From: a virus
Reading direction: 5' to 3' (one strand)
Length of the DNA: 47,636 nucleotides
IMG/VR virus record: IMGVR_UViG_3300044960_000095
Location: 1 to 47,636 of that record
Shown: piece after piece, positions 128 through 43,147 of the stretch
Layout of the letters: the number at the start of each line of letters is the position of its first letter
How positions within the stretch are numbered: position 1 is the stretch's first letter
Made by a program: the position numbers and the translations under genes
Notes under the pieces: model-generated
Seen by the model: only the letters and a program-made list of their open reading frames with translations
What the model was told of the DNA's origin: nothing
Database searches by the model: none

Positions 128-2800
128 CAAGTTGACTTTCTGGGTCCGGTAACCGTTGCCGGTAATGCGACGCTCGGCAACGCCAGCACCGATGCTCACG
201 CGCTGAACGGCACGCTCGCCGCGAATGGCACCGCTGGCACGAACGGTCAAGTGTTGCAGATCGTCGGCGGCCTTCCGCAGTGGGGCGCGCCGTCAACGGC
301 GGGCATCACGACGGGCACAGGTACCACGAGCCGCGTCACGAAATGGACCGGCACCAGTAGCCTCGGCAACTCGACCATCACCGACGACGGTACGAACATC
401 ACGCTGGCTCCGGCGACCGGCGTTCACGTGAGCACTGGGTATCTGTGGCACGGCCCTTCGATCAATACGTACATTAGCAGCAGCTCCGGCATCGGTTTTC
501 ACTTCAACGCCAATCTTGATGATCAGACGGGCTACATAAACTATGTGGGATACGGCGGCGGTACGAGTCGAACTCGTAATCTGATCATCGCCGATGGTAA
601 GGGTGCTGCCGTTGCGACGTTTACTGGGTCCACCAAGCAAGTCAATTTCGCAGGCGCGGTAACCATCGGCGGCAGCGTTACGATCCCCCCGGGCTCTGGC
701 ACGGCCGGAGGGCTCAAGATCGGGAGCGCGGTCGATGCGCTGTATCGCAGCACCGCGGACGGGAATCTGTTTTTGGTCAACCCGTACTCTGTCGGCGGAA
801 CTGGTCCGTATGACGTTGTTATTAAAACGACTTCTACGGACGGCCGCATTCGTTTGCAGGCCGGCGGCGGCGGTGATGATCTAGTGGTCAACGCCGATGG
901 CAGTACGTCGCTATTAGGCAACACGACCATCGGCGATTCCACGTCGGATACTCACACGCTGAACGGTACGCTCAACGCAAACAGTACCGCAGGAAGCAAC
1001 GGTCAGGTGCTCCAGGTAATCGGTGGGCTGCCACAGTGGGGCGCACCATCTGCCGCAAGCATTCCGACTGGTACCGGTTCCACGAACAAACTGACGAAAT
1101 GGACTGGTACCAACAGCCTGGGTGACGCCTCGATCTCGGATACGGGGTCACTGGTTACAGTGGCCAATCCAACCGTTATCAACGGCACGGTTAACAGCAA
1201 CACGTTGACCATCAATGGCTACGACTCTGGCAACCAGAGCGCAGCGGCGATCAAGGTGGTCAACATCGTGGGCGACGCTTTGGTTTCCAACACCGGGAAT
1301 CACGAGCGCTATGGCCTCTATTCGTCGGTTGCGCTGACTCGGCTGAATGCCGAGATTGGCGATGTCACTGCTTATGCCGGTTACTTCAGTGCCGATGTGT
1401 CCGGGGTGCAGGGCGGTGGCACCAAGACAGCCTACGCGCTGTATACGAACCAGGGTCTTGTTCATTTCGCTGGGGACACGAATATCGGCGGTAACCTTGT
1501 CGTTCAGGGCACGGACATCCTTACCACGCTGAACGGCAAGCAGAACGCCGATGACACGTTGACTGCTCTTGCTCAGCTTGACTCCACGACGGGACTCATC
1601 GAGCAGACGGGCGCGGACACCTTTACGAAGCGCGCTATCGGCGTCGGGGCGTCCACCTCGATTCCGACTCGCGGCGACGCGGATAGCCGGTACGTCCAGC
1701 AGACCCGGGCAGTAAACACGACGGCACCCCTCTCCGGTGGCGGTGCGTTGTCCAGCGACCTAACGCTGTCGCTGAGTGATAACGGTATCAGCAATACGAA
1801 GCTGCGTGACTCGGCGGGCTTATCAGTTATTGGTCGCAGTGCGAACACCACTGGTGACCCGGCCGATATTGTGGCTGTGAATGACGGTGATGTCCTTCGT
1901 CGTTCCGGCACGACGCTTGGTTTCGGAGCTATCCCGCAAAGTTCGGTTACCAATCTGACCACTGATCTCGCGGCGAAACTACCGGCGGCGAATGTTAGCG
2001 GTACCAGCGGCAAGCTCGCGAAGTTCACGGGCAGCAACACGCTGGGTGACTCGATCGTTACAGAAAGTGGTTCTACCGTCTCCGTGGCCGGTGATGTGGT
2101 TGCTACGAGCGGTTTCAAGGTCGGCAGCGGCGCGGTCAAGGGGCGTTTGAAGATTGGCCACAAAATCTTCACGTCGAGCGGCACGTATACGCCTACAACT
2201 GGAACTAAAGCTGTCAGGCTGCGAATGGTCGGTGGCGGTGGCGGTGGCGGTGGTGTTAGTGGCAGTGGCTCAGGGGGCGGCGGCGGCGCGGGTGGCAACA
2301 GCGGCACGTACCTGGAGAAGTGGATTGAGCCCGGTACGGACATTACGGGTGGCACCGTAACCGTCGGAGCCGGTGGTTCCGCTGGTAGCACTTCCGGTGG
2401 AGCCGGCGGTAACGGCGATAACACCTCCGTTGTGATTCAGGGAGTGACGTACACGGCGGCGGGAGGTACCGGCGGTCCCGGAGTGGCCACTCGCGCGGGT
2501 AACGTCATGGCGGTAACCCCGGCAGCAAATAACACCAGCTCCAGCGCGGATATCGTTTACTTCAACTACGGTACTCCGGGCTTCTCGTTTGTTGCTGACG
2601 TTGGCGTGCAGTGGTGGTACTCCGGGGCCGGTGCGTCATCGCCGTTTGGCGGTGGCGGCGGCGTGGCCAACACCAGTGTCAACGGTATCGCCGCTAGTGG
2701 CTACGGTGCCGGCGGTGGCGGCGCTGCAAATGCCACTAGTACGGGCAAGTCGGGTGGTGTCGGTTCTCCCGGCATCGTGATTATTGAGGAATACGCATAA
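2..2800 (+). CDS. Tail fibre / receptor-binding protein, C-terminal part (continues from 46827)
   Basis: This is the C-terminal 932 residues of a protein that starts at 46827 and crosses the circle junction; the full product is 1,160 residues. The frame is open from base 2, and a start at the TTG at 71 would be an artefact of the cut. The chain is rich in Gly, Thr, Ser, Asn and Val, with repeated GNVTV- and GSTKQV-type strands typical of trimeric beta-structured fibres. Two homologous blocks occur at 164-409 and 920-1165. The last ~220 residues are a glycine-rich domain (runs of 6-8 Gly around 2230-2290 and 2640-2730) like those at the tips of phage fibres. It probably contacts the host surface. 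GC drops in patches (for example 780-840), which suggests mosaic exchange. The receptor is unknown. Confidence 0.85.
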   Translation, partial: STGVVDGYINYYGYNGGITQFRNLRICDGKGADIAKFTGSTKQVDFLGPVTVAGNATLGNASTDAHALNGTLAANGTAGTNGQVLQIVGGLPQWGAPSTAGITTGTGTTSRVTKWTGTSSLGNSTITDDGTNITLAPATGVHVSTGYLWHGPSINTYISSSSGIGFHFNANLDDQTGYINYVGYGGGTSRTRNLIIADGKGAAVATFTGSTKQVNFAGAVTIGGSVTIPPGSGTAGGLKIGSAVDALYRSTADGNLFLVNPYSVGGTGPYDVVIKTTSTDGRIRLQAGGGGDDLVVNADGSTSLLGNTTIGDSTSDTHTLNGTLNANSTAGSNGQVLQVIGGLPQWGAPSAASIPTGTGSTNKLTKWTGTNSLGDASISDTGSLVTVANPTVINGTVNSNTLTINGYDSGNQSAAAIKVVNIVGDALVSNTGNHERYGLYSSVALTRLNAEIGDVTAYAGYFSADVSGVQGGGTKTAYALYTNQGLVHFAGDTNIGGNLVVQGTDILTTLNGKQNADDTLTALAQLDSTTGLIEQTGADTFTKRAIGVGASTSIPTRGDADSRYVQQTRAVNTTAPLSGGGALSSDLTLSLSDNGISNTKLRDSAGLSVIGRSANTTGDPADIVAVNDGDVLRRSGTTLGFGAIPQSSVTNLTTDLAAKLPAANVSGTSGKLAKFTGSNTLGDSIVTESGSTVSVAGDVVATSGFKVGSGAVKGRLKIGHKIFTSSGTYTPTTGTKAVRLRMVGGGGGGGGVSGSGSGGGGGAGGNSGTYLEKWIEPGTDITGGTVTVGAGGSAGSTSGGAGGNGDNTSVVIQGVTYTAAGGTGGPGVATRAGNVMAVTPAANNTSSSADIVYFNYGTPGFSFVADVGVQWWYSGAGASSPFGGGGGVANTSVNGIAASGYGAGGGGAANATSTGKSGGVGSPGIVIIEEYA
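164..409 (+). repeat. Fibre internal repeat, copy 1
   Basis: This encodes an ~82-residue block containing LNGTLAANGTAG and GQVLQIVGGLPQWGAP, homologous to the block at 920-1165. The copies are diverged at DNA level, so this is an old duplication within the fibre shaft and not a recent one. Confidence 0.8.
920..1165 (+). repeat. Fibre internal repeat, copy 2
   Basis: This encodes LNGTLNANSTAG and GQVLQVIGGLPQWGAP, matching copy 1 at 164-409. The segments preceding both copies are also related: GYINYVGYGGG at about 530 resembles GYINYYGYNGG at the circle junction. The duplicated unit therefore probably includes a longer shaft module. Confidence 0.8.
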
Positions 2801-3873
2801 TGATCGGTACTGATCTAAACCTGGTGTTGCCGTCACTGTCGGAATCGATGGCAACCAACATCTCGAGAATCGCCACGGCACTCTCGCAGATTGAGGACTC
2901 CATCGCGCAGAAAGCAACCCCGGCCGCCCTGGACATCAACGCACCCCTTGACATGCAGGGTAATGCGCTGACGAATACTACGTCGGTGCAGCTCTTACCG
3001 GGTAACGTCCCGTCGACCGCCGGCTCGATCTACTACTATAACGGCGAGTTCTACTTGATCGACGGTACGGGCACCATTCAGTTGACCGCTAATGGTGCGC
3101 TTAATGCCGCCAGCGTGGGCGGTATCGGTGGTGACTACGGCGGCGTGAATCCCGCGGCAGTTGTGTTTGACGACGCTTCCGGCGAGTACCGATTCACCGA
3201 GGACAACACGCCAACGTGGGCTGACCTGAAAGCGCAGGATGTAATCCTGATGCAGAACGGCGGTACCGGCTACGTGCGTCTCGGCGTCGACGCCGCGATC
3301 ACCGCCGGGCGGACGTTCTATTTCAAATCGTTGCCGAGCTCCGGCGCGAGCATGCTGGTCTATAACGCCAGCACTTCCACGCTCGAAGATGGCGCAGCGA
3401 CTCGTGCCACCGGAACGCAGTTGTTTACCGCAATCGACGCTACGAGCACCGTCAAGGGCGCCGATTTCAAGCACAGCGATGTGGAAATGCCGCTGTCGCA
3501 CATCGGACATAGCGAGTTTGCTAATGGTGGTAGCGCCGTTCAGCGCCCGCATCAGGCGTGGCGGTCGACGGGCAGTGGTACGTGGACGTTCATGCAACAC
3601 CTTCCGCTGAAGGTCGGTGATCGCGTGAAGTCCGTAACGGTACGGCTCGCGAAAACGTCAACGGTACTTGCTAGAATTTACATTTACAAATGGGATGGCA
3701 CCACTCTCACGCAGGTGGCAACCAATACAACGGCTAGTAGCTCGACTGTGGAACTGACCGCAACGGTTGGCACGCCGGTTGCCATCGTGTCGGGTGAGCA
3801 CTGGTACGTGCAAGTTGAGTGGTCAGACGGCCACACGATGGACAAGCTCCGCGCAACGTTCGATAGGCCCTAA
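2800..3873 (+). CDS. Virion protein, probable fibre-associated or tail protein
   Basis: This 357-residue protein starts with an ATG overlapping the fibre stop by one base (TAATG). The N-terminal ~45 residues look helical or coiled (SLSESMATNISRIATALSQI), followed by Ser/Thr/Gly-rich beta sequence and a C-terminal segment (about 255-357) that reads like a jelly-roll or carbohydrate-binding sandwich (WTFMQHLPLKVGDRVKSV, ARIYIYKW, GEHWYVQVEW). Its position between the large fibre and the tail hub suggests a second fibre or appendage. I do not recognise a named family. Confidence 0.65.
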   Translation: MIGTDLNLVLPSLSESMATNISRIATALSQIEDSIAQKATPAALDINAPLDMQGNALTNTTSVQLLPGNVPSTAGSIYYYNGEFYLIDGTGTIQLTANGALNAASVGGIGGDYGGVNPAAVVFDDASGEYRFTEDNTPTWADLKAQDVILMQNGGTGYVRLGVDAAITAGRTFYFKSLPSSGASMLVYNASTSTLEDGAATRATGTQLFTAIDATSTVKGADFKHSDVEMPLSHIGHSEFANGGSAVQRPHQAWRSTGSGTWTFMQHLPLKVGDRVKSVTVRLAKTSTVLARIYIYKWDGTTLTQVATNTTASSSTVELTATVGTPVAIVSGEHWYVQVEWSDGHTMDKLRATFDRP

Positions 3874-6800
3874 TGGCGCGTAACAGCTACGCCGAACAGG
3901 AAGCGATTACCTGGCAGACCGTAGGACTGCGACTCGGCGAGATTGGTCTCGACCTCCGCAACCGGACCACGCCGGGGGCACTCACGAAGCTGCTCAACGC
4001 GCGCTTCGAGGCCGATCGCATCGTCCGCCGCAACGGCTACCACGGCATCCGCCTCCAGCACGCGACTCAATTCCCCATCTTCCTTAACGGCGGTACGAGC
4101 ATTTCGTCAGCAATCAATCCAGTTGGGTGGATTTACGGCCACGGTCAGCAGGTCGACCCGAGCAACCCGTACGCGATCGAAACGATGCATTTCCCGGAGC
4201 CGCGCGTGGCCCGGGGCACGTTTCGGTACGAAGGCTCCGACGTTGTTTGGACCGGCGATCGTCTAATGATCGTCCGACGCGATGGCCATTCGGCAGTCGG
4301 CTACTCCGACTTCTGGGGCCTCCTCGTGAAGCACGCCGGCATCCCGGCGTTTCTCCCGCAGCAGGTCGACAGCCCGCCGCCGGACACGGTGACCGGCAAT
4401 TACGTTGAGACGTGTGTAACGGATACACAACGGTTTGTCGCGTGGGCCACCAGTACCGGCGTATCGTTGGTTGTCGTTGATCGCGCAACGGGCGCCGTCG
4501 TTAATCGCACTAGCGTTGGTGGGGCGGCTGCTTACGATATCAGACTGGTTCAGTCGGGCGCGTTTGTGGTCTGCGTGTGGAGGGATGCCAATACGGACCT
4601 CAACATTACAAAGTGGACCGGATTAACGTGGACCGCTGCCTCGCTTATTGACACGAACATCCGAGCGTTCGACCTAGCCCCCGTGCCGGGCGGGTTTCAT
4701 TTGCTGTGGCGTGATGGTGCCACGCTGTACGTCGGCAAATACGCAGGCCAGAACACCAGCAGCACCCCGTATGCTTTCCAAACGGCACTTTCGATTACGG
4801 GTACGCCAAACGGTCCGGTGGCCATTGCGGTCGCACCCGATGACACGCTCTGTGTGGTGTGGCAGTCCACCACGGGGTTGCAGGCCAAGGTGTTTAGTCA
4901 GTCGCTTGCGCAGATTTACGCGCAAACGACACTGAGTGCAACCACCATTTGGGACGGCGGACTATCGGTTTGCTCGCGCAGTTTGAAGGGGTCACCCTCG
5001 GGAGTCGCCGAGCCCTACTATCGATGGGTTGTTCACGCTGGAGACACAAACGGTAGCGTTTGGCTGGTTGAATTCCTGAATCCGGCGTCAGTCACGCGAC
5101 AGGCGACCCGTTACAATTCCAGGCTGGGTAGCAAGTCGTTTCGTGTTGGTAACGAGGTGTTCTGCTGGTTGCGCGCGACCAACTCGAGCACGCTCTACCT
5201 TGTCGGCGGAATCCATTCGGCTGGCATCTACACGCAGGTTTGCGGTATCGCGGATCGTGAGGAGGCGGCAACACGAGTGGTGCAAGACGGCGTGATGGCG
5301 CTGCCGATGGTCGTGCAGGATCCACTCGATGAGCACAGCTTCACGTGGGCGCGCCCGTTCTACACCGGGCAGAGCTACACGCGCGGCGGTAACGCGCGCA
5401 TCGGCGATCTGAACTTCCTCCCGACGTTCTCGGCGGCGCAGTACGGCGACTCGGTCTATATAGCCGGTAGCCACGTGCGATGTTGGGACGGCGTGGAGCT
5501 CGGTGACGCCGGCTTCCACGACTACCCGATCGTCACGGCCGCGACACCCGGCACCGGCGGTAGCCTCACGGTGAACTCGGCGTATCAGTACCGGGTCTAC
5601 CCCGTGCGCTACAATAAGCGCGGCGAGCGGTTCATGGGCGCGGCACTGACGTATGCCGCCAGTACGGGCGCGAGTGACACGAAGCTGACGCTGACCATCA
5701 AGACGCTGCCGGTGACCAACCACGACGACGTGGTATTCGAGGTTTACCGTACTGAGGCAGGACAGACAACCTTCCGTTTGGAGGGTACCGTCGCAAACAG
5801 CCTCACCGCCGGCACGGTGTCGTTCGTCTCGCAGATGTCCGACGCGACGTTGAGGACGCAGCCGGCGGACTCACATGAGGTCGGCGTTTCTGGCCCGGAA
5901 GAAGTCGAGGAGTTCGGCCCAATCGGCTGCGCGTTCCTAGTGGCCGCCGGTGATCGCCTGTGGGGCGCCGGTGGTCAGGTCCCGCGCGGGTTCGTGCAAT
6001 TCTCGAAGCTGAAGGAGCCCAAGGAGGGCGCCGGTTTCGATGCGCTGGCCGGTACGCAGCAGATCGACACTGAGGGCGGCGAGATCATCTCCATCGCCAA
6101 CTTCAGCGACAGCCTTGTCATCTTCGAGCGCGACCGCATCTACGTGCTGTTTGGCGGCGGGCCGGACAACTACGGCAACGGTGCATTCAGCACCCCTCAA
6201 CTCGTGCTAGCTGACGGCGCCGTCTCTCACGCGGGCACGTGTGTTACCCAGCTCGGCGTGCTGTTCTGGGGCGTCGACGGCCCCCGCCTGCTGACGCCCG
6301 CATTCAAAGTCGAACAGATCTGCGACCCCGTCCGCAAGCTCACGGAGACGCTGTCACCCTCCGGTGTGCAGGCGGATCTCGTCCGACGCGAGGTCGTGTG
6401 GTTCACCCGCGAGGGGACCGCAGTGCTGTTCAACTACGCCGGCCAGCGGCCTCGGTGGGCGCAGTGGACGGGCCTGAAGATCGCGGGGTGCTCGGACAGC
6501 GCGCTCGTCACCACGGACGGGCTGCTGCTACAGGAGGACCCCGACGCTAATGGCGACAACGGCGTGCCGTTTGAGTACGGGGGTGCTACTGGTGAGCTCG
6601 ACCTCGAGCAGCTGCTACTTGGCTGTACGGAGCTAAACCGCGTGGGCGTCGTCGGCGAGTACAAGGGGCCGCACCGCTTGCGCCTGCGGATCTACTTCAA
6701 CGGCTCGCCGATGTGGACCGATCAGCAGGTGTGGGACCCGAGGGACAAGACGTGGCTGGCCAGCGTCGAGGACGTTGCGAACCTCACGCCGGCGCAGGTC

Positions 6801-7001
6801 GACGCGCTGAACGCCACCGACCAGTCCGGCAAGTACGCCACTCACAAGAAGGTGTCTCGCCACAGCTGCGCGAGCTTCCGCGTCGAGTGGAGTGACATGG
6901 GGGCCTTCCGCCCGACCTATCAGCTGCATCAGCTCGTGTTCGAGCTCGGCGCGCGCGGTGGTCTCGCCCGAGTGCCCGCCAGCACATTCACCAGGAGCTA
7001 A
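3873..7001 (+). CDS. Large tail hub/nozzle-like protein (beta-propeller type)
   Basis: This 1,042-residue protein follows in a TAATG overlap. Its repeated strand patterns with aromatic and Gly turns look like propeller blades. The segments GDRLWGAGG and NFSDSLVIFERDRIYVLFGG, then VLFWGVDGPRLL, resemble tail tubular protein B / P22 gp10-type hub proteins of short-tailed phages, which extend the portal-adaptor channel. Size and position (after fibres, before ejection proteins) fit. A structural search would be needed to separate a nozzle from another large virion protein. Confidence 0.55.
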   Translation: MARNSYAEQEAITWQTVGLRLGEIGLDLRNRTTPGALTKLLNARFEADRIVRRNGYHGIRLQHATQFPIFLNGGTSISSAINPVGWIYGHGQQVDPSNPYAIETMHFPEPRVARGTFRYEGSDVVWTGDRLMIVRRDGHSAVGYSDFWGLLVKHAGIPAFLPQQVDSPPPDTVTGNYVETCVTDTQRFVAWATSTGVSLVVVDRATGAVVNRTSVGGAAAYDIRLVQSGAFVVCVWRDANTDLNITKWTGLTWTAASLIDTNIRAFDLAPVPGGFHLLWRDGATLYVGKYAGQNTSSTPYAFQTALSITGTPNGPVAIAVAPDDTLCVVWQSTTGLQAKVFSQSLAQIYAQTTLSATTIWDGGLSVCSRSLKGSPSGVAEPYYRWVVHAGDTNGSVWLVEFLNPASVTRQATRYNSRLGSKSFRVGNEVFCWLRATNSSTLYLVGGIHSAGIYTQVCGIADREEAATRVVQDGVMALPMVVQDPLDEHSFTWARPFYTGQSYTRGGNARIGDLNFLPTFSAAQYGDSVYIAGSHVRCWDGVELGDAGFHDYPIVTAATPGTGGSLTVNSAYQYRVYPVRYNKRGERFMGAALTYAASTGASDTKLTLTIKTLPVTNHDDVVFEVYRTEAGQTTFRLEGTVANSLTAGTVSFVSQMSDATLRTQPADSHEVGVSGPEEVEEFGPIGCAFLVAAGDRLWGAGGQVPRGFVQFSKLKEPKEGAGFDALAGTQQIDTEGGEIISIANFSDSLVIFERDRIYVLFGGGPDNYGNGAFSTPQLVLADGAVSHAGTCVTQLGVLFWGVDGPRLLTPAFKVEQICDPVRKLTETLSPSGVQADLVRREVVWFTREGTAVLFNYAGQRPRWAQWTGLKIAGCSDSALVTTDGLLLQEDPDANGDNGVPFEYGGATGELDLEQLLLGCTELNRVGVVGEYKGPHRLRLRIYFNGSPMWTDQQVWDPRDKTWLASVEDVANLTPAQVDALNATDQSGKYATHKKVSRHSCASFRVEWSDMGAFRPTYQLHQLVFELGARGGLARVPASTFTRS

Positions 7002-8553: not shown

Positions 8554-8556
8554 TTC

Positions 8557-33981: not shown

Positions 33982-34132
33982 GATGCCTCTCTTGGGTGAG
34001 TGGTTTGTGTGGAATCCATTTGAAACCGTCGAATCTGTCCACCTAGAGAGAGAGCTGGCCCTCCTGCGGCATCGAGCCAGCCGGAGAGACTAGATGGACA
34101 GGTTCGGCGGCTTCAACCGGCCGCCAGCGGCG

Positions 34133-34273
34133 CTAGAGCGACGGCTGTGGAGCTTGCTCGCGTGCCCCAAGAACCTGATCAGCGGTGATGCCGACCGCCT
34201 TGGACGCCTCGATCAACATCAGCAGCGAGCCGAACGCCGCCGCGAGCTGAACGCCGTGATCCGCGACAGCCAC
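34133..34273 (-). CDS. Small Ala-rich helical protein
   Basis: The protein has 46 residues from GTG 34273: MAVADHGVQLAAAFGSLLML then IEASKAVGITADQVLGAR. The opposite-strand frame here is Arg-rich and shadow-like. It is the first reading frame after the promoter at 34309-34337. No clear Shine-Dalgarno site. The interval 33982-34132 otherwise holds only a GGAATCCATTTGAA repeat (34011-34024) and the kinase RBS. Confidence 0.4.
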   Translation of the reverse strand: MAVADHGVQLAAAFGSLLMLIEASKAVGITADQVLGAREQAPQPSL

Positions 34274-34308
34274 GAGACAACTCAATCGAGGTTAGGTTTC
34301 ATAAAAAA

Positions 34309-34337
34309 TTCATATGAACCAACGAGCGGAGTGTCAA
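34309..34337 (-). promoter_or_regulatory. Sigma70-type promoter
   Basis: On the - strand TTGACA (34337-34332), a 17-base spacer, then TATGAA (34314-34309). It would drive the small ORF, the kinase-like gene and the integrase. A GCACCCCT word (34344-34337) abuts and shares one base with the -35 box. Confidence 0.55.
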
Positions 34338-34344
34338 GGGGTGC

Positions 34345-35184: not shown

Positions 35185-36464
35185 CAGCGCACCCCCACCT
35201 TTGAAAGCTCGTCCGTGGTCCACCCTGCCGTAGCGCGACGGAGTGCACGCTCGATCGTCCAGCCGCCCTGCACCATGCGGGCAACGTTGAGGAGGAATCG
35301 CGTGCCGACGATGCGCCGGAGCTTTTGCTCGCTCACGCGATCACGAATCGACCACACACGCACACAAATGGAATCGTCGCCCACTAGCTCGCGTTCAAGG
35401 TCGCGATCGTAGTCGACCTCAATCATCGTGCCCACGAAGCGATCGAGAAACGCCGCGTCCAGCTGGTTGCGTCCGACGTACTGGCGATCGGTACCCGTGC
35501 CCCACGTGTTGGCGGCGCAGATGATCACGCTGTCAGGATGGCGCGTGGCCGTCGGCTGCTCTGCACGGTCCACGAGCGAGAGGTGGCCGTTTGCCGTGGC
35601 CGATTGGATGCAAAGCATCATGTTGGGATCGCTACCGTCCACCTCATCAAACAGGAACACGCCACCACACTCGTACATGCGCACGAAGTCAGTACCCTGA
35701 TAGCTGGTTGCGCCCGTAGTGAGGTTTGGAATTGCGCGCCCAACGATCTTGCCCTCGCTAACACCGGCGCTACACGAGATGCCAGCCCACCCACGAGCGT
35801 TGTCGCGCGTGCTGTCCAGTGCGCGAGCAAGGTCCGCCGCGAGCGTGGTCTTGCCCGAGCCAGCCGGGCCCACAACGTAGAAGTTACGGAACCCCATCGC
35901 GTACAGCTCCATGATCTCCGCGAGCGCCTTGTGAGTGCGCCCGCTCACCTTGGCGACGGTGGTACCGTTCACGCGGAAGTCGTGCACGCGCGCGCCCATC
36001 GCTCCGGTCTTGACGGCGTCCATGATGATCGCCGTGGCGATCTCGCTGGCACGACGCTCGATGTAGGCTGCGATCGTGGTACCGAGCGCTCCGTAGACAC
36101 TGAGATCGATCCCGGGTGCGCTGGTTGGTTTGGAATCCATTTGAATCTCGCCAGCGTCGCCATCATCGAGATCAGGGGTGCTCGTGCTGTCGCTGCTAGC
36201 CGACGCACCCCTGGGCGAGCAGATGCGATAGGGCTTGCCCGCTTTGCCAGCGCTGCACCGCCCGTGCTCGGCGCATTCGCGATAGGTGGAGTACGGCCCG
36301 ACCGTCCAAACGAGCGTGCCGTGGACCGGGCAAGCGGGGTGCTCGGGATCGGCCGCGTTGGTACCCTCAGCGGGGCAACCCTTGTGAGCGGGCTTGAAAC
36401 CTTTGAGGGTGTCGTACGCGACGACGGCGCCGCACGCGTCGCATTTCTTGCTGTACTTGGCCAT
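35184..36464 (-). CDS. CobS/MoxR-type AAA+ ATPase with N-terminal zinc-binding region
   Basis: The protein has 426 residues from ATG 36464. The N-terminal ~85 residues contain CDAC and later Cys/His residues (CPVHG, CAEHGRC, YRIC) of a zinc-ribbon type. After a linker comes the AAA+ core: Walker A VVGPAGSGKTTLA, Walker B GGVFLFDEVDGSD, sensor 1 IICAANTWGTG and an Arg-rich lid. Such chelatase-like ATPases remodel partners, here probably the 34345 product. Confidence 0.8.
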   Translation of the reverse strand: MAKYSKKCDACGAVVAYDTLKGFKPAHKGCPAEGTNAADPEHPACPVHGTLVWTVGPYSTYRECAEHGRCSAGKAGKPYRICSPRGASASSDSTSTPDLDDGDAGEIQMDSKPTSAPGIDLSVYGALGTTIAAYIERRASEIATAIIMDAVKTGAMGARVHDFRVNGTTVAKVSGRTHKALAEIMELYAMGFRNFYVVGPAGSGKTTLAADLARALDSTRDNARGWAGISCSAGVSEGKIVGRAIPNLTTGATSYQGTDFVRMYECGGVFLFDEVDGSDPNMMLCIQSATANGHLSLVDRAEQPTATRHPDSVIICAANTWGTGTDRQYVGRNQLDAAFLDRFVGTMIEVDYDRDLERELVGDDSICVRVWSIRDRVSEQKLRRIVGTRFLLNVARMVQGGWTIERALRRATAGWTTDELSKVGVR

Positions 36465-36466
36465 GA

Positions 36467-36670
36467 CTAGAGCACCCCCAGCAATGCGTTCGCTTGGTAG
36501 ACGAGATCGGGGCGACGTAGCTCCAACGCCGCTGTTAGCGCGCGATTGACACACGCGCGAGCCAACATCGGGCGACGTAATGCGTATGTCAGCGCGAGAT
36601 CCGTCTCGCAAATAAAGACGTGCAGCATTGTGCCGTCAAGACGGCAGGCGATCCAGGCGTAGCGATTCAT
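36467..36670 (-). CDS. Small hypothetical protein, first gene of the early arm
   Basis: The protein has 67 residues, with a TTGGAGGCC ribosome-binding site before ATG. It reads as beta then helical segments (YAWIACRLDGTMLHVFICET, ALRRPMLARACVNRAL). No family recognised. It is the promoter-proximal gene of the leftward transcript. Confidence 0.55.
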   Translation of the reverse strand: MNRYAWIACRLDGTMLHVFICETDLALTYALRRPMLARACVNRALTAALELRRPDLVYQANALLGVL

Positions 36671-36727
36671 TTGGCCTCCAAATAATTTTTGCGGGACTGG
36701 CGGGAACTAGTGCACGGTGGATGCCAA

Positions 36728-36756
36728 ATGCTATCCATTTGAAATCCGGTCGGCAA
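36728..36756 (-). promoter_or_regulatory. Weak candidate promoter of the early arm
   Basis: TTGCCG (36756-36751), 17-base spacer, TAGCAT (36733-36728). It lies at the right place, 58 bases before the first leftward gene, and the spacer holds an ATCCATTTGAAA copy (36733-36744). The match to consensus is only partial. Confidence 0.35.
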
Positions 36757-36769
36757 CCCTCAAAAAAGT

Positions 36770-36919
36770 GTGACAAGATGGCGCGAACGGCCACTCGGGA
36801 TGTGGAATTTTGGGACAGCGAAGAAGTGCCACGAGTGCCGCGAGCCAAACAGCACCCAAACGACGCACTCTCGCCTCGCCATCACCGTGCCCGGAGGTCA
36901 CACTAGCCTCGGTAGCTAG
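36770..36919 (+). CDS. Possible small CxxC protein
   Basis: From GTG 36770, 49 residues: MTRWRERPLGMWNFGTAKKC then HECREPNS and a Ser/Thr-rich tail. The CHEC pair suggests a half zinc knuckle. No promoter or ribosome-binding site is convincing. It may be chance coding in the divergent control region. Confidence 0.3.
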   Translation: MTRWRERPLGMWNFGTAKKCHECREPNSTQTTHSRLAITVPGGHTSLGS

Positions 36920-37219
36920 CGTGCATGTTAACCGCGCGAAACCACTAGCAGTGGCGGCATTGGAAATGAGCCATCCATTGCCATTGTTTGGCGCAACCGC
37001 GCGTAATCGCTGGCAAACGACGCCATTTGTAGGCGCTAACAGCGCGAGATCGCGCGCACCAGGGGTTTCCCCGCAGGGGAAAGAAGCTGCGCCCGCAGGG
37101 GTCCCCACACGCGCAAAAAATCCCCTCTCGAATATTACCCACATCCACCTACATGACTCGAGGGACGGGGGTACCTCGTCGAGCTCATCACCCCTTGACA
37201 CCGTCGAAAAAATAGCGGC
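36920..37219. other. Non-coding, hairpin-rich control segment
   Basis: No frame here looks coding. A cluster of hairpins lies at 37033-37110: GCGCT-AAC-AGCGC, GCGCGA-GA-TCGCGC, TTTCCCC-GCA-GGGGAAA (37066-37082) and CTGC-GCCC-GCAG. A short AT-rich patch follows (AAAAAATCCCC; GAATATTACCC). Position at the point of divergence fits an origin, packaging or regulatory locus, but nothing proves which. Confidence 0.4.
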
Positions 37220-37248
37220 TTGACAGCACCATTTGGATACCGTATAAT
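37220..37248 (+). promoter_or_regulatory. Consensus sigma70 promoter
   Basis: TTGACA (37220-37225), 17-base spacer, TATAAT (37243-37248), a perfect match. The spacer contains CCATTTGG. It should drive the lipoprotein gene at 37399 and could fire in a prophage. Confidence 0.85.
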
Positions 37249-37289
37249 AATAGCGACAGCAGTTAAGGTTTTGGCGGTGCTACGGCGCA

Positions 37290-37331
37290 GTCAGTGAGGG
37301 GTGCTGATAGCTGAGTCAGCTAGTCACTGAC
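37290..37331 (+). promoter_or_regulatory. Large inverted repeat with inner palindrome in the lipoprotein leader
   Basis: GTCAGTGA (37290-37297) pairs with TCACTGAC (37324-37331). Between them AGCTGAGTCAGCT (37309-37321) is itself palindromic. An AGGGGTGC copy starts at the end of the left arm. It may be an operator or an RNA switch. Confidence 0.6.
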
Positions 37332-37398
37332 GAGCAGCCGACAGGCCGACCAGCTAATAGTGGCTTGTAAGGCGCTAATGGCTGAGTAGCATAAGCAC

Positions 37399-37611
37399 AT
37401 GCGCTACTTGCTACTCCTACTCGTGGCGTGCTCGAGCTCGAGGGCGGCGCCGAGGCCGCAAGTGCCCGATACGCTAGTGGTCGCCGACGACATCTTCGGG
37501 AGCGTGACCGCCGAGATCGCGTTCGGCCCTGAGCCCGGAGCCTACGATTGCGAGGTGATGACGCCGGCCCCGCGACAGAACCCCAAGCCGGGCGAGATGA
37601 TTCCACGCTAA
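37399..37611 (+). CDS. Small lipoprotein
   Basis: The protein has 70 residues. MRYLLLLLVAC is a short lipoprotein signal with Cys11 in the lipobox; the mature part is Pro-rich with one strand pair (DTLVVADDIFGSVTAEIAFG). It has its own consensus promoter (37220) and a structured leader, unlike the late genes. Phage lipoproteins expressed this way often block superinfection; that role is only inferred. Confidence 0.65.
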   Translation: MRYLLLLLVACSSSRAAPRPQVPDTLVVADDIFGSVTAEIAFGPEPGAYDCEVMTPAPRQNPKPGEMIPR

Positions 37612-37668
37612 CGGCACCCCTAAATAGCAGTCTTGTCGCGTCGTTAGTAGTAGGCATATGAAAACCAT

Positions 37669-37698
37669 TTGACAGTGGCAGGTCAATCGCGGTATAAT
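37669..37698 (+). promoter_or_regulatory. Near-consensus sigma70 promoter upstream of the RNA region
   Basis: TTGACA (37669-37674), 18-base spacer, TATAAT (37693-37698). CCATTTG overlaps the -35 box. Transcription would begin near 37705 at a self-complementary GTGGGAGCTCCCAC and run into the tRNA and twin RNAs; 37705-37797 is a structured leader without a gene. Confidence 0.8.
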
Positions 37699-37797
37699 AC
37701 TTACGAGAAGTGGGAGCTCCCACCCACGCAGGTGACAGCGCAAAGGGAGACACGCTGAGTCGCCGGCCGATTACGGCGGATGACGGAGAAGCGTTGA

Positions 37798-37875
37798 CGC
37801 GGGATGAGGAAGTCCGGTCCATCCGCTCGGGCTCATTACCCGAGAACGCTGGTTCAAATCCAGCTCCCGCTACCA
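37798..37875 (+). tRNA. tRNA-Met(CAU), initiator-like
   Basis: A 78-base cloverleaf. Acceptor CGCGGGA pairs with TCCCGCT except position 1 (C1 x U72 mismatch, like the unpaired first position of initiator tRNAs). D-loop AGTCCGGTCCA has the invariant bases; the D-stem has one A-G mismatch. Anticodon arm TCGGG-CTCATTA-CCCGA carries CAT and three consecutive G-C pairs, a hallmark of initiator tRNA. T-arm GCTGG-TTCAAAT-CCAGC; CCA is encoded. The last ~50 bases could also serve as attP core. Confidence 0.75.
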
Positions 37876-37879
37876 ATTC

Positions 37880-37947
37880 GAGGCCACGTCCATCGCTTGG
37901 AGCCGTTTGCAGGGGTGCAGCGGGACCTCCAACTCGTGGGTGGCCTC
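37880..37947 (+). ncRNA. Structured RNA, copy 1 of a tandem pair
   Basis: A long hairpin starts four bases after the tRNA CCA. P1 GAGGCCAC/GTGGCCTC; inner CCA/TGG; internal loop TCGC/CTCG; P2 TTGGAG/CTCCAA; P3 CCGT/GCGG; bulged U; TGCA-GGGG-TGCA tip. AGCTTTTCT follows. Copy 2 has the same segment lengths on both sides with different paired bases. A terminator function is possible, but the conserved loops suggest a specific RNA. Confidence 0.75.
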
Positions 37948-37956
37948 AGCTTTTCT

Positions 37957-38027
37957 GACGGGCTGGCTGGTCGCTCTAGGCCACTTGCAGGGGTGCAGTG
38001 GAAGCTCTGGACTCGCCACAGCCCGTC
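37957..38027 (+). ncRNA. Structured RNA, copy 2 of a tandem pair
   Basis: P1 GACGGGCTG/CAGCCCGTC; inner TGG/CCA; internal loop TCGC/CTCG; P2 TCTAGG/TCTGGA; P3 CCAC/GTGG; bulged U; TGCA-GGGG-TGCA tip. ACCTTTTCT follows. Relative to copy 1 nearly every helix position differs but still pairs, while the unpaired TCGC, CTCG and the TTGCAGGGGTGCAG tip are identical. Confidence 0.75.
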
Positions 38028-38036
38028 ACCTTTTCT

Positions 38037-38114
38037 CCGGTGAACGCACTCCTTGAGACGAGTCTAGGGGCACCGGGAACATTCATCGGTCGACGGTAGC
38101 GCTTCAACGTCGAC
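38037..38114 (+). other. Further hairpins in the RNA region
   Basis: CCGGTG (38037-38042) pairs with CACCGG (38071-38076) and encloses ACTC/GAGT. GTCGACG (38089-38095) pairs with CGTCGAC (38108-38114). These do not share the twin-RNA loops. No coding frame is apparent in 38028-38300. Confidence 0.5.
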
Positions 38115-38119
38115 GAATA

Positions 38120-38184
38120 GCCCCGGCCGCTGTCGGTAAGTCCCTCGCGAGGGCACGGCGCGGTACCGGGGCGGCGCCTTTTCT
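38120..38184 (+). terminator. Strong hairpin ending in CCTTTTCT, likely terminator
   Basis: GCCCCGG (38120-38126) pairs with CCGGGGC (38166-38172), inside it CCGC/GCGG and a tight CCCT-CGCG-AGGG hairpin. GGCGCCTTTTCT follows. The same CTTTTCT ends both twin RNAs and the 45.7 kb terminator. It would separate the RNA region from the terminase operon. Confidence 0.55.
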
Positions 38185-38300
38185 ACAGCAAGCTGTATCC
38201 AGAGGGTCAATGGAACTCGCATCACGCAAGCGAATGGGTCACCCGCCGGTCCACGTTGACAAGAACGCTAGACGCGCGGTCAGCTACGTGGAGAGCTACC

Positions 38301-38816
38301 GTGCTTAACGACGACGGTAAGCCGCGGCGTGGAAGACCACCGGGTTCCAGGAACAAGCCTAAAGAACGATTGGTACCGCCTAGTCATGTCCCGCTGGAAG
38401 ACATCAGACCTGTAGATCCAGACACCATCGTTGCTCGCCAGCTGACGATGCTCGATTGGGCACAGCAGGCGATGCGCAACGAGATGAAGCGCGCCATGCA
38501 GGCGAAGGGGCAGTGGATCTCCAGCGATGACATCGCGAAGCTCGAGAAGCTGTCGATGGCCATTGTTCGCGCCATCGAAGCGCTGAAGCGATCCTCCGAG
38601 CTGGCTGACGAGCTCGCCGCACGCCTCAACGCGGAGCAGCTGCTCGAGGCCGCCATCCGCAAGATTGAAGGCCAGGATCTCGCGACGCTGAACTACGCGA
38701 TCAAGCGACTAAGAGCCCACCGTGAGCGCCTCGCGCCGGTGGGCGGGTTCGACAAGATCCAGATGGGCGAGCCGGCCACCGCTACGGCTGCAATCGCCGA
38801 GCTGGCCGAGGAGTAA
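38301..38816 (+). CDS. Probable terminase small subunit
   Basis: The protein has 171 residues from GTG 38301, chosen over TTG 38256 because of GGAGAG just upstream. An AT-hook-like GRPPGSRNK lies near the N-terminus, followed by long helices (ELADELAARLNAEQLLEAAI) and an Ala-rich acidic end. It starts the packaging operon directly before the GNAT and TerL genes. DNA-binding N-terminus plus oligomerising helices fit TerS. Confidence 0.6.
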   Translation: MLNDDGKPRRGRPPGSRNKPKERLVPPSHVPLEDIRPVDPDTIVARQLTMLDWAQQAMRNEMKRAMQAKGQWISSDDIAKLEKLSMAIVRAIEALKRSSELADELAARLNAEQLLEAAIRKIEGQDLATLNYAIKRLRAHRERLAPVGGFDKIQMGEPATATAAIAELAEE

Positions 38817-39268
38817 TGCAGTTCGCGACTCCGACCGCCGACGAGCTGAAGCTGGTCTTCGACTCGTGGGCAAACAGCTTCCGCAAATCACCGTGGGCTG
38901 GCTGCATCCCGAATCACCTCTACGACCAGGTGAGCCGCGAGGTGCAGCGAAGCATCATGGACAGGGGTGCGCGTGTGCTGGTCGCCGTCACGCCGATCGA
39001 GGGGCACGAGGCCGAATTCCCGGAGGTGCGGCGCGTGATGGGCTACAGCGTCTCCGAGCCGGAGCGCGGCATCCTGCACTTCCTGTACGTCAAGGCGCCG
39101 TATCGTGGGATTGGCGTCGGTCGCGCGCTCAAGCAGCGGACCGTCATCGACTTCTCGGCAGGCCAGCAATGGACCTACACGTTCCGCACGCGCGCTAGCG
39201 AGCGGTTCCTCAACAGCGACGTACCCGGCGTGTTTCGTTGGGACCCGGTGCCCGCTCGAGTCAAGTAA
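38816..39268 (+). CDS. GNAT-fold acetyltransferase-like protein
   Basis: This 150-residue protein has the acetyl-CoA site in YVKAPYRGIGVGRAL (motif A, R-G-x-G-x-G-R) preceded by strand GILHFL, as in GNAT enzymes. TAATG overlaps at both ends. GNAT-like genes next to terminase are seen in several podovirus genomes; the substrate is not known. Confidence 0.65.
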   Translation: MQFATPTADELKLVFDSWANSFRKSPWAGCIPNHLYDQVSREVQRSIMDRGARVLVAVTPIEGHEAEFPEVRRVMGYSVSEPERGILHFLYVKAPYRGIGVGRALKQRTVIDFSAGQQWTYTFRTRASERFLNSDVPGVFRWDPVPARVK

Positions 39269-40992
39269 TGTCTCGCACTCTCGAAAAAGCGCTACGGAAG
39301 GAAGCCGGGCGCACTGACGCGCAGAAGGAGGTAGACAAGCGCTGTCGCGAGCGGGCCAAGAAGATGCTCGCGGACCTCCAGCGCGTGAACCCCAAGGCGG
39401 CGGCGATGGTCCTCGATCCGTCTCCGCACGTCGCGGCTATTTGTCCGCGCCGCGCCGGCAAGACGTACGCCGCAGTGCTCGCCGCGCTGATCACCGGCGA
39501 GGCCAAGCCGGGCTCTATCAGCCTGATCATCTCGCTGAATCTCAAGCAGCTGCGCCGCCTCTATTGGGCCGGCGGTCCTTCGGGCCTGTTCACCATCGCG
39601 CGGAAGTACGGACTCCACCTCGAGTTCAACAACACCTTCCTGCGCTGGGAGCACGAGAACGGCAGCATCGGCTACCTCCTCGGCGCCGACGACGACGAGC
39701 AGCTCGAAGTCATTCGCGGTCTCGAGGCCGACCTCTACATCATCGACGAGTGCAAGAGCTTCCAGCCGGTCGTGCTCGAGAAGCTCATCGAGGACATCAT
39801 CGACCCGCAGCGGGCCTCGCGTAAGGGCCGCATCGTGATGATTGGTACCCCCGGTTTCATCATGGCCGGACCGTTCTGGCAGGCGACGTGTCCCGACGCG
39901 ACGTTCGAGATGGAGTACCCCGAGGGCTCCGGTCAGAAGGTTCGCGCGCGCTACTCCGTCGACTACGGGCAGCAAGATCCCTACGGTCGCACCGGTATCC
40001 TTGTTTGGTCGCGGCACCATTGGACGCTCCAGGACAACACTGCGATGCCCCACCAGTGGGAGGAGGCGCTCGCGAAGAAGCGGCAGAAGGGTTGGTCCGA
40101 CGACGACCCGACGTGGATGCGCGAGTACCTCGGCATGTGGACTTCGAGCTCCGAGGGACTCGTCTTCCGCTACCACGAGGAGAAGCGCACCGGTCGCGTC
40201 ACCTGGCAGCCGAAGTCGAAGCGTATCGACCAGACCACTCTTGCTGAGCCGGACGCGCTACCGGAGGACGGTAAGCCCTGGCGGCTGATTGCCGGCCTCG
40301 ACATCGGCTACGAGGCGCCCACCGCGTTAGTCGTTTGCGCCTACTCGTCGAAGCTGCGCCAGCTCCGCGTCATCGCTGACTACTCGCGCAGCCACATGCT
40401 CGTCCCGGACATCGCCGAGATGATCTACGACGCGCAGCGCCGGTACGGACCCATCGAGAAAATCTACGCCGACGTTGGCAACCTCGGCAAGATGGTGGTC
40501 GAGACCCTCGTTCGCGAGTACGGTTTCCCACTCGAGAGGGCCGACAAGCGCGAGAAATACGACCACATCGAGCTCCTCAACGCCGCATTTAGTCGTGGCG
40601 AGGTGCTGGTCATCGAGAATTCCACCCTCGAGAACCAGCTGCTCACGGTTTGCTGGGACCTGCGCGACGACAATAAGGGCGCGAAGGACCTGCTCGCGCG
40701 TCAGGGCAAGCTCCGCGAGGACGACTCGATCCCAAACGACAGCACCGACGCGCTGCTGTACTGCTATCGCGGCTCGCTGCACCACTTCGGATGGAAGCCA
40801 TCTGAACCGCAAGTGGAGCCCGGCACCCCCGAGTGGGTGAAGCAGAAGGAACTGCGCGCGCTCGAGCTCGCCCGCAGACAGCTAATCGACGCGGAGAAGC
40901 GTGGCCCGCTGGTCACCAACGACCTGCCGAGGGGCTCGTACTTCATCCAGCGCGCACTCACGAGGCTGCGATGGTCACTCCCGAAAATCTGA
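39268..40992 (+). CDS. terL: Terminase large subunit
   Basis: The protein has 574 residues from ATG 39268. Walker A CPRRAGKTYA (~60), Walker B LEADLYIIDECKS (~157), coupling motif VMIGTPG, then the RNase H-like nuclease with Asp in GLDIGYEAPTALVV (~345), DVGNLGK and NDSTDALLY. It packages DNA into the prohead through the portal. The 3' end overlaps the next gene by 22 bases. Confidence 0.92.
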   Translation: MSRTLEKALRKEAGRTDAQKEVDKRCRERAKKMLADLQRVNPKAAAMVLDPSPHVAAICPRRAGKTYAAVLAALITGEAKPGSISLIISLNLKQLRRLYWAGGPSGLFTIARKYGLHLEFNNTFLRWEHENGSIGYLLGADDDEQLEVIRGLEADLYIIDECKSFQPVVLEKLIEDIIDPQRASRKGRIVMIGTPGFIMAGPFWQATCPDATFEMEYPEGSGQKVRARYSVDYGQQDPYGRTGILVWSRHHWTLQDNTAMPHQWEEALAKKRQKGWSDDDPTWMREYLGMWTSSSEGLVFRYHEEKRTGRVTWQPKSKRIDQTTLAEPDALPEDGKPWRLIAGLDIGYEAPTALVVCAYSSKLRQLRVIADYSRSHMLVPDIAEMIYDAQRRYGPIEKIYADVGNLGKMVVETLVREYGFPLERADKREKYDHIELLNAAFSRGEVLVIENSTLENQLLTVCWDLRDDNKGAKDLLARQGKLREDDSIPNDSTDALLYCYRGSLHHFGWKPSEPQVEPGTPEWVKQKELRALELARRQLIDAEKRGPLVTNDLPRGSYFIQRALTRLRWSLPKI

Positions 40993-41252
40993 GCCGCGTC
41001 CTGTTCGACCTGAAGGCGGCCGGCGTGCGCCGCGCGAAGTTCGCCCCCGACGGCACGCTCCAGGAGGTCGAGTTCGCCGAGGAGCTCTCCGAGCCCGAGG
41101 ACCGGAGCACTACGCAGGTGGTTACGGTTCCCACCGCCACCGCCGCAGCACCCCAACAACTGGCCATTAACGGCGTCGTCGTGACTAAGCACCCCGGCTA
41201 CGCCGCGCTGTTTGGAGCCAACACCCCGCGCTTCCGTTCCGCTGACGAATGA
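40971..41252 (+). CDS. Small protein between terminase and portal
   Basis: The protein has 93 residues from ATG 40971, inside the TerL end. N-terminal helix and strand (SRVLFDLKAAGVRRAKFAPD, TLQEVEFAEE), then a Thr/Ala-rich linker. Its stop overlaps the portal ATG (ATGA). Similar small genes accompany podovirus portals; the function is not known. Confidence 0.6.
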   Translation: MVTPENLSRVLFDLKAAGVRRAKFAPDGTLQEVEFAEELSEPEDRSTTQVVTVPTATAAAPQQLAINGVVVTKHPGYAALFGANTPRFRSADE

Positions 41253-43147
41253 GAACACTCCAGGTACTCAACCCATTGCTACGCCAGCGCTGGTACGAGA
41301 AGGGCAGCGCCTCGAAGGACAAGAAGGAGGACGAGCTCCTCCGCGCGCAGTCCCTCGTCTCGGAGACGGCCGAGATCGAGCAGTATCAGCGCTCGTGGCA
41401 CGAGCTGAACCTCTGGAATGCCACGCTGCTGTTCAACCGCGAGTTGGTTGGGTTCAATTGGGGTGTCACGGAGGTCAACGCCGCGCGCGAGCTGTGGCCG
41501 TACAACCTCCACACCGAGAATCTCATCGAGGAGATCGGCGAGGCGATGATCTCGAAAGCGAGCTCGTCGCCGCTTCGGCCGTCGCTGGTTCCCACCGGCA
41601 AGAGCTGGAAGACCGAGCGCGCCGTTAGGAAGGCCGACAACTTCCTCTACGGACTGTGGCGGCAGACCAAGAGCGAGGACGCCTGCGTTTCGGCGTTCCT
41701 CGATTCGTTCTGGGCCGGCATCGGCGCCGTCATGGACGTGTACGACGAGGACACCGGGCTGCTCTGCACCGAGGCCCTGTTCCCCGACAACATCATCATC
41801 GACAACCGCGAGTGCATGAATCGGCGTTCGCCGCGCACGATTCGCATCCGCTCCGTTGTCCCGCGCGCCAGCATCGAGGCCAAGTACGGCGAGCTGCCGG
41901 CGACGCAGAAGTACGCCGACTATCGGCGTATCGGCGAGGGCTACGAGATCGTCGTCGAGGCGTTCCGTTTGCCGGACGCAAATGGCGAGGGCGGCTGGCA
42001 CGGCATCGCGTGCGGTGGCCGCATGCTGGTGGACGAGCCGTGGACGGAGGACTGGTTCCCCGTCGAGTTCTTCCACTACCGCGACAAGCTCAGCGGTTTC
42101 TACTGCCGCTCCGGCGTCGAGTCGCTCGTGCCGTATCAGCTGCGGCTGAACGACCTCAACAACGCGATCGAGGAGAGCCAGGACATCCGTTGCCATCCGC
42201 GACTGCTGACCCACATGAACACGCAGCTCGACCTGAGCCAGTGGGACAACGAGGCGGGGCGCATCCTGGGCTACGCGGGTGAGAAGCCCGAGCCGTTCAT
42301 TTGGCAAACGGAGCTGGCCGAGCTCTACCAGGAGCGCGAGCGCGTGTGGCAGAAGGCGTTCAACCACGCCGGCCTGTCCGATATGTTCGCGCACGCGGAG
42401 CTCCCTCAAGGGGTGCGACTGGACTCGAGCGCGGGCGTTCGCGAGTTCCACAACATGGAAGACCGCCGCCACTTGCGGCTGTGGACTCGCTTCGAGGACT
42501 TCCGGCTCCGGGTAGCGAAGATGCACCTCAAGGTGCTCGGCCGCTATAAGAGCGCGAAGGCGTACACCGTGGTGTACCCGTCGTCGCGTCTCGCTCAGGC
42601 CGCGAAGAAGGCCACCTACGAGGCCGTAAAGTGTCTCACCGAGGACCAATACAATTGGGACCTCGCCGCCGTTCCGCTGTCGCAGATGTCGCCGGCCGCG
42701 CGCCGCGAAACCCTCCGTGATTGGGTGTCGCGCGGACTGATGGACGACGCGCAGGCGAAGCGGATGCTCACCAACCCAAATCTCGAGCTCGAGGAAGACC
42801 TCGAGATGGCGAGCTACGACGACATCTACCGCCACATCGAGATCATGGAGAACGGTGGGTACGAAGCTCCGACGGAGCTGACCAACCTGACCTACGGCAT
42901 CAAGAAGGTCGTCGCGAACCTTCATCGACTGCGCCAGTTCGAGGAGGAGGACGAGGAGTCCGCCAAGGAGCTGCGCAACGTCATCGAGAATCACGTCAAG
43001 TGGATCGTGCACGCGACCTCGATCCAGCAAATGGCGGTCGCGATGTCGCAGGCTACGCCCGCGCCATTCCAGCCGACGCAGGGAATGCCCGGTACGAGCG
43101 CGTCTATCGGTAATATGGGTCCGATGGCAGCGCCAATGCCCGCTTAA
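41249..43147 (+). CDS. Portal protein
   Basis: This 632-residue protein follows TerL and precedes scaffold and capsid. Typical portal features: helical N-terminus, NRELVGFNWG, EEIGEAMISKASS, DSFWAGIGAVMDVYDEDTG, LFPDNIIIDN, then a long helical stem and crown (RRHLRLWTRFEDFRLRVAKM) and a Gly/Met/Pro-rich C-terminus. It forms the dodecameric DNA entry ring. Assignment is by position, length and these signatures. Confidence 0.85.
   Translation: MRTLQVLNPLLRQRWYEKGSASKDKKEDELLRAQSLVSETAEIEQYQRSWHELNLWNATLLFNRELVGFNWGVTEVNAARELWPYNLHTENLIEEIGEAMISKASSSPLRPSLVPTGKSWKTERAVRKADNFLYGLWRQTKSEDACVSAFLDSFWAGIGAVMDVYDEDTGLLCTEALFPDNIIIDNRECMNRRSPRTIRIRSVVPRASIEAKYGELPATQKYADYRRIGEGYEIVVEAFRLPDANGEGGWHGIACGGRMLVDEPWTEDWFPVEFFHYRDKLSGFYCRSGVESLVPYQLRLNDLNNAIEESQDIRCHPRLLTHMNTQLDLSQWDNEAGRILGYAGEKPEPFIWQTELAELYQERERVWQKAFNHAGLSDMFAHAELPQGVRLDSSAGVREFHNMEDRRHLRLWTRFEDFRLRVAKMHLKVLGRYKSAKAYTVVYPSSRLAQAAKKATYEAVKCLTEDQYNWDLAAVPLSQMSPAARRETLRDWVSRGLMDDAQAKRMLTNPNLELEEDLEMASYDDIYRHIEIMENGGYEAPTELTNLTYGIKKVVANLHRLRQFEEEDEESAKELRNVIENHVKWIVHATSIQQMAVAMSQATPAPFQPTQGMPGTSASIGNMGPMAAPMPA

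Follow-up and report, generated by a model that had tools for sequence, protein, structure and literature searches.

When a phage word is present in dozens of exact copies, there is usually a protein that reads it across the entire genome, as with Chi and the stoperators. The virus record IMGVR_UViG_3300044960_000095, analyzed here over its full 47,636 bases (the window), carries such a word, the octamer GCACCCCT (5'-AGGGGTGC-3' on the other strand, core GGGGTGC), and raises the question of what reads it. The first and last 127 bases of the record are identical, leaving 47,509 unique bases, and this ~47.5 kb of unique sequence may be circular or terminally repeated. We find that the exact eight-letter word occurs at about 12 times the frequency that the genes require and is apparently recognized by some DNA-reading protein in this previously unseen bacterial virus.

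The first-pass annotation had reported 38 copies against about 3 expected, and our recount gives exactly 38, with 22 as GCACCCCT on the + strand and 16 on the - strand, a density of 0.8 per kb or about one per 1.2 kb. Base composition predicts 3.17 copies and an order-2 Markov model 1.16, while the reversed word, taken as a control, occurs 3 times. That annotation had also named a shuffle preserving codons and amino acid order as the test that could overturn its claim. Our codon null, in which synonymous codons are shuffled within each gene and intergenic DNA is resampled by dinucleotides, yields nothing comparable: the mean is 3.14 copies (z 23.5), with a maximum of 8 in 300 shuffles and of 9 in 1,000, corresponding to ~12-fold enrichment. 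By this null, no other 8-mer in the genome is as enriched as GCACCCCT; next come the overlapping AGCACCCC (z 13.4) and then all remaining 8-mers, at 11.7 or below. The top 8-mer score under the order-2 model is 30.5 in the window, against a median of 6.7 over 49 other virus loci, each of at least 11 kb and including pieces of the sibling phage described below and two named phages; the second-highest locus is Microbacterium phage Mabodamaca, at 27.9. The 38 exact matches to GCACCCCT are as follows, with - denoting the word on the other strand:

1724..1731, +, tail-fibre gene 71-2800
2941..2948, +, gene 2800-3873
6190..6197, +, codons AGC ACC CCT (STP)
8728..8735, +, gene 8557-10860
10573..10580, -, sense codons AGG GGT GC
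12193..12200, +, gene 10908-13460
15825..15832, +, intergenic, with converging operons on either side
17384..17391, +, M23 peptidase gene
18015..18022, +
18870..18877, +, RNA ligase gene
19303..19310, +, MazG-like gene
19542..19549, -, MazG-like gene
19675..19682, -, DNA polymerase gene
20190..20197, -, DNA polymerase gene, AAG CAC CCC TAC (KHPY), sibling AAG CAT CCG TAC
20535..20542, +, DNA polymerase gene
21289..21296, +, DNA polymerase gene
24814..24821, +, intergenic
25890..25897, +
26539..26546, +, DnaB-like helicase gene
27425..27432, +
30457..30464, -, intergenic, 64 bases from a leftward sigma-70-like promoter
30980..30987, -, small early open reading frame (ORF)
31103..31110, +, intergenic, directly preceding a - strand ATG
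31679..31686, -
31902..31909, +
32821..32828, -, tyrosine integrase gene, overlapping a copy of the second word, GCYRTTWG
33170..33177, -, intergenic, upstream of the integrase
33385..33392, +, end of a kinase-like gene
34337..34344, -, intergenic, touching a TTGACA hexamer (by eye)
34444..34451, +, DUF7192 gene
36174..36181, -, CobS-like ATPase gene
36205..36212, +, CobS-like ATPase gene
37297..37304, -, intergenic, 49 bases past the promoter at 37220-37248
37614..37621, +, intergenic, 48 bases before the promoter at 37669-37698
37911..37918, -, adjoining tRNA-Met
37989..37996, -, adjoining tRNA-Met
38963..38970, -, sense codons AGG GGT GCG (RGA)
42409..42416, -, portal gene

The word is strict. 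The 21 words that differ from it by one mismatch at positions 1 to 7 total 37 copies, against 38.6 ± 4.9 expected, and the lack of any excess among these relatives shows that the sites are not copies in decay. Softness is confined to the eighth base, whose minor forms number 36 against 13.6 expected (~2.6-fold enriched). The minor bases had been listed as C, G or T, whereas our recount finds T in 38 copies, G in 14, C in 12 and A in 10. The sequence flanking the sites is nearly uninformative, with no longer motif around the word.

Selection acts on the word as DNA. Genes contain 27 copies against 2.95 expected under the codon null, and these genic sites occupy each of the three frames and either strand, with no frame preferred. 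For a synonymous comparison we used a sibling phage, a single related record of 49,078 bases found by a portal search, which is syntenic over most of the genome. Among 8 chosen sites inspected, of the 17 in aligned genes and without assigning a direction of change, three encode peptides that are identical in the sibling, where other codons write them: STP at 6190 is TCG ACG CCG there, the CAC CCC of KHPY at 20190 is CAT CCG, and RGA at 38963 is CGC GGC GCG. The remark that late-gene sites use rare codons also holds, as AGG accounts for 22 of the 486 arginine codons in late genes and 2 of those 22 lie inside the word. The codon-null excess, the mixed frames and orientations, and the identical sibling peptides with other codons show that the word is under strict, strong selection as DNA, genome-wide, in agreement with what the first-pass annotation had proposed. 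A cost to protein conservation was considered and rejected (identity 0.45 against 0.50 expected over the 17 sites in aligned genes, p 0.27).

A second word, beyond anything claimed previously, is also over-represented:

910..46930, 43 copies on + and 37 on -, GCYRTTWG (reverse complement CWAAYRGC), 80 copies genome-wide

The codon null predicts 11.8 copies, with a maximum of 22 in 1,000 shuffles, so that GCYRTTWG is enriched ~7-fold. It is found 48 times in the early region and 32 times in the late region, without intergenic preference (p 0.54), and it is graded rather than strict, with 233 one-mismatch forms against 167 expected. With both words masked, the top score among the remaining 8-mers falls to 7.8, near background, indicating that by 8-mer score the genome has two exceptional word families. 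A fixed composite of GCACCCCT and GCYRTTWG was rejected, as their spacing is random and they lie within 15 bases of each other 4 times against 1.8 expected (p 0.10); CTAATG-GCACCCC junctions are suggestive but few. Paired half-sites of GCYRTTWG were likewise rejected, with no repeated spacing.

Both words recur in the sibling in altered form, a finding that also goes beyond the first-pass annotation. Protein identity between the two phages is 57% for the terminase, 64% for the capsid and ~55% for the polymerase. The sibling has only 4 copies of GCACCCCT, equal to its control (4), but 17 of AGCACCCC against 1.3 expected, without a halo of one-mismatch forms (42 against 38.8). Its counts of AGCACCCCA and AATCRTTKG are 10 against 0.3 and 22 against 1.6, respectively, all sibling expectations coming from the order-2 model and not the codon null. 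The enrichment of AGCACCCC(A) and AATCRTTKG indicates that both words exist there in shifted form, the first with the same core as in the window and a different preferred eighth base. Related phages had been suggested as a place to look for the same word. Relatives more distant than the sibling do not show it: 11 ERF-carrying records hold 0 to 3 copies of GCACCCCT each (12 loci were found, one of which was not included). Dispersed phage words are already known, and what is new here is two at once (~12- and 7-fold), selected inside genes through codon choice and seen drifting between siblings.

Shared site positions were rejected, as only one 7-mer pair (6485/46811) is co-located, out of 35 sites in the window and 10 in the sibling that fall in aligned genes. 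An 85-base model built from 13 of the 20 GCACCCC sites in the sibling, omitting 7, retrieves mostly the sites it was built from and finds the window weakly (best E 0.54), and we make no claim from it. A record with a 27%-identical terminase has 5 copies of the 7-mer, against 7 of the control, and no exceptional 8-mer. Scanning a viral collection with CTAATGGCACCCCT matched at least 119 stretches, one match per contig among the matches listed, and none of these loci is rich in either word. The phage collection contains no near relative of the first 24 kb of the window, protein searches in it return distant matches or none, and scans of genome contigs found no relative.

The early region (15.8-38.25 kb) holds 30 sites against 2.61 expected under the codon null (11-fold), and the late region holds 8 against 0.53 (15-fold). 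The word had been described as densest in the early and control regions, which holds for raw counts (30 of 38) but not for enrichment; the early crowding is mostly gone after correction. Gene boundaries are not preferred (8 of 38 sites within 40 bases, 6.0 expected, p 0.23), orientation shows no bias relative to transcription (18:20), and spacing is random. Five pairs of sites lie less than 150 bases apart, and one (36174/36205) is close enough for a hairpin. The overall strand split of 22:16 is not significant (p 0.42). On the linear contig, orientation flips once near 28-30 kb, with + in 16 of 20 sites before and 6 of 18 after (permutation p 0.04, one change point). A leading-strand or two-arm arrangement is suggested by the linear contig and not by the circle, and we do not adopt it.

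Our tentative first choice is that GCACCCCT is a Chi-like octamer that would tame a nuclease of the AddAB or RecBCD type. Such a helicase-nuclease, most likely the host's, would enter phage DNA at free ends, encounter the G-rich word every 1.2 kb or so, and there cease degradation and begin loading recombinase. The phage would benefit from protection of its linear DNA and from concatemers made by recombination, and exact copies would accumulate wherever codons or intergenic DNA permit. Copies in both orientations would follow if ends can be entered from either side, as we propose. The nuclease-type reader, its owner and the benefit to the phage are what we infer; the word itself is observed to resemble Chi as a strict, asymmetric, G-rich octamer that is present in all gene classes, indifferent to boundaries, randomly spaced and free of frame or transcription bias. 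Similar early and late enrichment and 27 genic copies are as expected for a gene-independent word. We place this reading first because the octamer resembles Chi and because phages over-represent their host's Chi, including temperate and concatemer-making phages (PMC3784561; here and below, literature statements refer to the available excerpts of the papers cited). That paper is the sole close precedent found in our literature search for phage words of this kind, and neither GCACCCCT nor AGGGGTGC was found as a whole word in a search that is blind to words inside longer sequences. The features that bear on this and the competing readings are as follows:

29524..30252, -, ERF-type single-strand annealing protein (PF04404, E 3e-22; phrog_155)
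28422..29096, -, PD-(D/E)XK exonuclease, RecB/Cas4-like (PF12705; phrog_69 exonuclease)
16335-17066, Dam-like methyltransferase homologue (phrog_111, E 5e-18; Pfam Dam 1e-4, below the family cut-off)
37220..37248, +, predicted sigma-70-like promoter, 12/12 matches
37669..37698, +, predicted sigma-70-like promoter, 12/12 matches
30528..30557, -, predicted sigma-70-like promoter, 11/12 matches

Several observations weigh against the Chi-like reading. Phages with their own recombinase and a RecBCD inhibitor avoid Chi (PMC3784561), and this phage encodes its own ERF protein and exonuclease. Median Chi enrichment is ~2 to 3 (PMC3784561), far below the 12-fold found here. The orientation evidence is equivocal: a single switch would be compatible with protection at both ends of the DNA, provided that the contig ends are the physical ones, but the pattern is not significant on a circle (p 0.24), and the 127-base overlap, which contains no GCACCCCT site, may reflect assembly rather than the physical ends of the DNA. 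Other features point to regulation instead, namely, 11 intergenic copies against 0.19 expected, 10 of the 30 early sites within intergenic DNA, which makes up 14% of the early region (p 0.006), and a GCACCCCT site 48 to 64 bases from each of the three best sigma-70-like promoters. Finally, a Chi-like octamer leaves GCYRTTWG unexplained.

Comparison with Chi shows both the likeness and its limits. The RecBCD word of Escherichia coli, GCTGGTGG, and the Chi words of other hosts are likewise asymmetric, G-rich, dispersed octamers over-represented in phages that need recombination (PMC3784561), but the word differs, as do its enrichment (2- to 3-fold rather than ~12-fold) and density (0.2 rather than 0.8 per kb), and this phage has its own ERF and exonuclease. 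Separately, an ERF-carrying contig of 34,879 bases, IMGVR_UViG_3300012662_000005, has a strict dispersed word of its own, TGCGCTGG, with 48 copies against 4.8 expected and no halo (72 against 68.1), codon habits being uncontrolled in these counts; with its orientation bias of 34:14, it is a stronger candidate for a Chi-like word than that of the window.

A possible, though doubtful, explanation is that GCACCCCT is the binding site of a phage regulator or DNA-coating protein, forming dispersed, stoperator-like operators that silence or organize the genome, with GCYRTTWG as the site of a second protein. The intergenic excess, the early intergenic preference and the promoter-proximal sites all speak for it, as do the encoded tyrosine integrase and the difference in site between siblings, which recalls stoperators in related phages (PMC6550527). 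The stoperators of Cluster A mycobacteriophages (L5, Bxb1, TipsytheTRex) similarly comprise dozens of asymmetric, dispersed sites that shift between relatives, but they are 13 bp long, follow transcription in orientation, prefer gene boundaries and have an identified repressor, none of which was observed for GCACCCCT (PMC6550527, PMC9283540). Stoperators therefore fit poorly, as the orientation feature that defines them fails (18:20 here), and 27 of the 38 sites are genic, including some in late structural genes. Among the proteins of the window that were scanned against Pfam or PHROGs, none was recognized as a repressor or helix-turn-helix protein, an absence that is weak evidence, and structure models of two candidate DNA-binding proteins were unusable (mean pLDDT, the predicted local distance difference test score, of 31.8 and 51.6). 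Strictness alone cannot separate a nuclease word from an operator, since the word CGTGTAAAC of Mabodamaca (OR613467) is equally strict and dispersed, with 16 copies against 0.01 expected and no one-mismatch halo. Most copies of CGTGTAAAC lie at gene boundaries (by eye), in contrast to those of the window's word, and it looks like an operator or stoperator set; a literature search on CGTGTAAAC found nothing. The CtrA-site-rich phages of Alphaproteobacteria are also enriched in the sites of one DNA-binding protein, but these are spaced dyads concentrated at promoters, whereas GCACCCCT is a solid and mostly genic octamer (PMC9437464).

The remaining explanations are less probable. It is unlikely that GCACCCCT is the recognition sequence of a host or phage DNA-modification enzyme whose many modified sites protect or mark phage DNA: the strictness of the first word and the two-way choices (Y, R, W) in the second resemble enzyme recognition sequences, and the Dam-like homologue is shared with the sibling, but its family matches are only partial, Dam-type enzymes of phages generally recognize short sequences, the second word has a halo, and restriction normally drives the loss rather than the gain of recognition sites in phages. 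Somewhat harder to credit is a two-word address code, in which a strict GCACCCC with a lineage-specific last base and a graded YRTTWG-like core with lineage-specific first bases would let their readers separate phage from host DNA, for example, through a Chi-like mark that causes an exonuclease, whether the phage's own or the host's, to leave phage DNA intact. As both words shift between siblings, such a code and its readers would be coevolving, amounting to self/non-self marking on unmodified DNA. We give slightly less credence still to a host genome-wide word (for uptake, segregation or architecture) acquired by a prophage during long residence, which the integrase and the enrichment across all gene classes would suit; copying and decay should leave one-mismatch relatives, which show no excess at positions 1 to 7, the ERF-carrying phages on other contigs lack the word, and the sibling prefers a different eighth base. 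An origin as a by-product of AGGGG Shine-Dalgarno sequences, terminator stems (GCACCCC...GGGGTGC) or codon-pair habits is very improbable. A few copies precede start codons (31103, 33385) and one hairpin (45680-45708) uses the 7-mer, but the null holds codon usage and amino acid sequence, frames and strands are mixed, and inverted pairs are few, so that this origin is largely refuted.

The candidates listed by the first-pass annotation (Chi-like hotspot, repressor or nucleoid-protein site, methylation or uptake word) are thus not fully separable, although the ERF and PD-(D/E)XK exonuclease genes it invoked are present. Once found, the reader would bring to light a host Chi not yet described, a dispersed regulator of an unusual kind or a means by which a phage discriminates its own DNA from the host's.

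The genome is arranged in two opposing blocks. Leftward early genes extend from ~38 to 15.8 kb and encode, among others, DNA polymerase, RNA ligase, a DnaB-like helicase, single-stranded DNA-binding protein, the PD-(D/E)XK exonuclease, ERF and the tyrosine integrase. The late genes, including those of tail-fibre and internal-virion type, run rightward as far as 15.8 kb, and the packaging and head genes are as follows:

39268-40992, +, terminase
41276-43147, +, portal
43977-45221, +, probable capsid, assigned from genomic position and sibling conservation, without a family match

Several minor observations accompany this layout. Host finding through tRNA-Met was abandoned as uninformative (~80% matches to Acinetobacter and others in plasmid-collection records). 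A 43-residue rightward ORF (30325-30456, +) lies within the leftward early region and shares 65% identity with the sibling over 26 residues; it has no family match and is possibly a small regulator. At the end of the late operon, the protein at 15126-15596 (+) is 63% identical in the sibling and weakly matches methyl-directed restriction enzymes (PADLOC, E 7e-6). The DNA polymerase gene of the sibling is interrupted by ~540 bases at about 10374-10918 (tblastn pieces 12351-10918 and 10374-9517), possibly by an intron or inserted element. ATTTGAAA and ATTCCAAA are also enriched under the synonymous-codon-shuffle null, and partly degenerate copies of a short TTCAAATGGATTCCA-type element are repeated on the - strand in the regions of 34020, 36175 and 36740. 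The hairpin at 45680-45708, between the genes at 45249-45668 and 45742-46824, has the arms ACAGCACCCCA and TGGGGTGCTGT and is possibly a terminator, though one without an obvious T-run.

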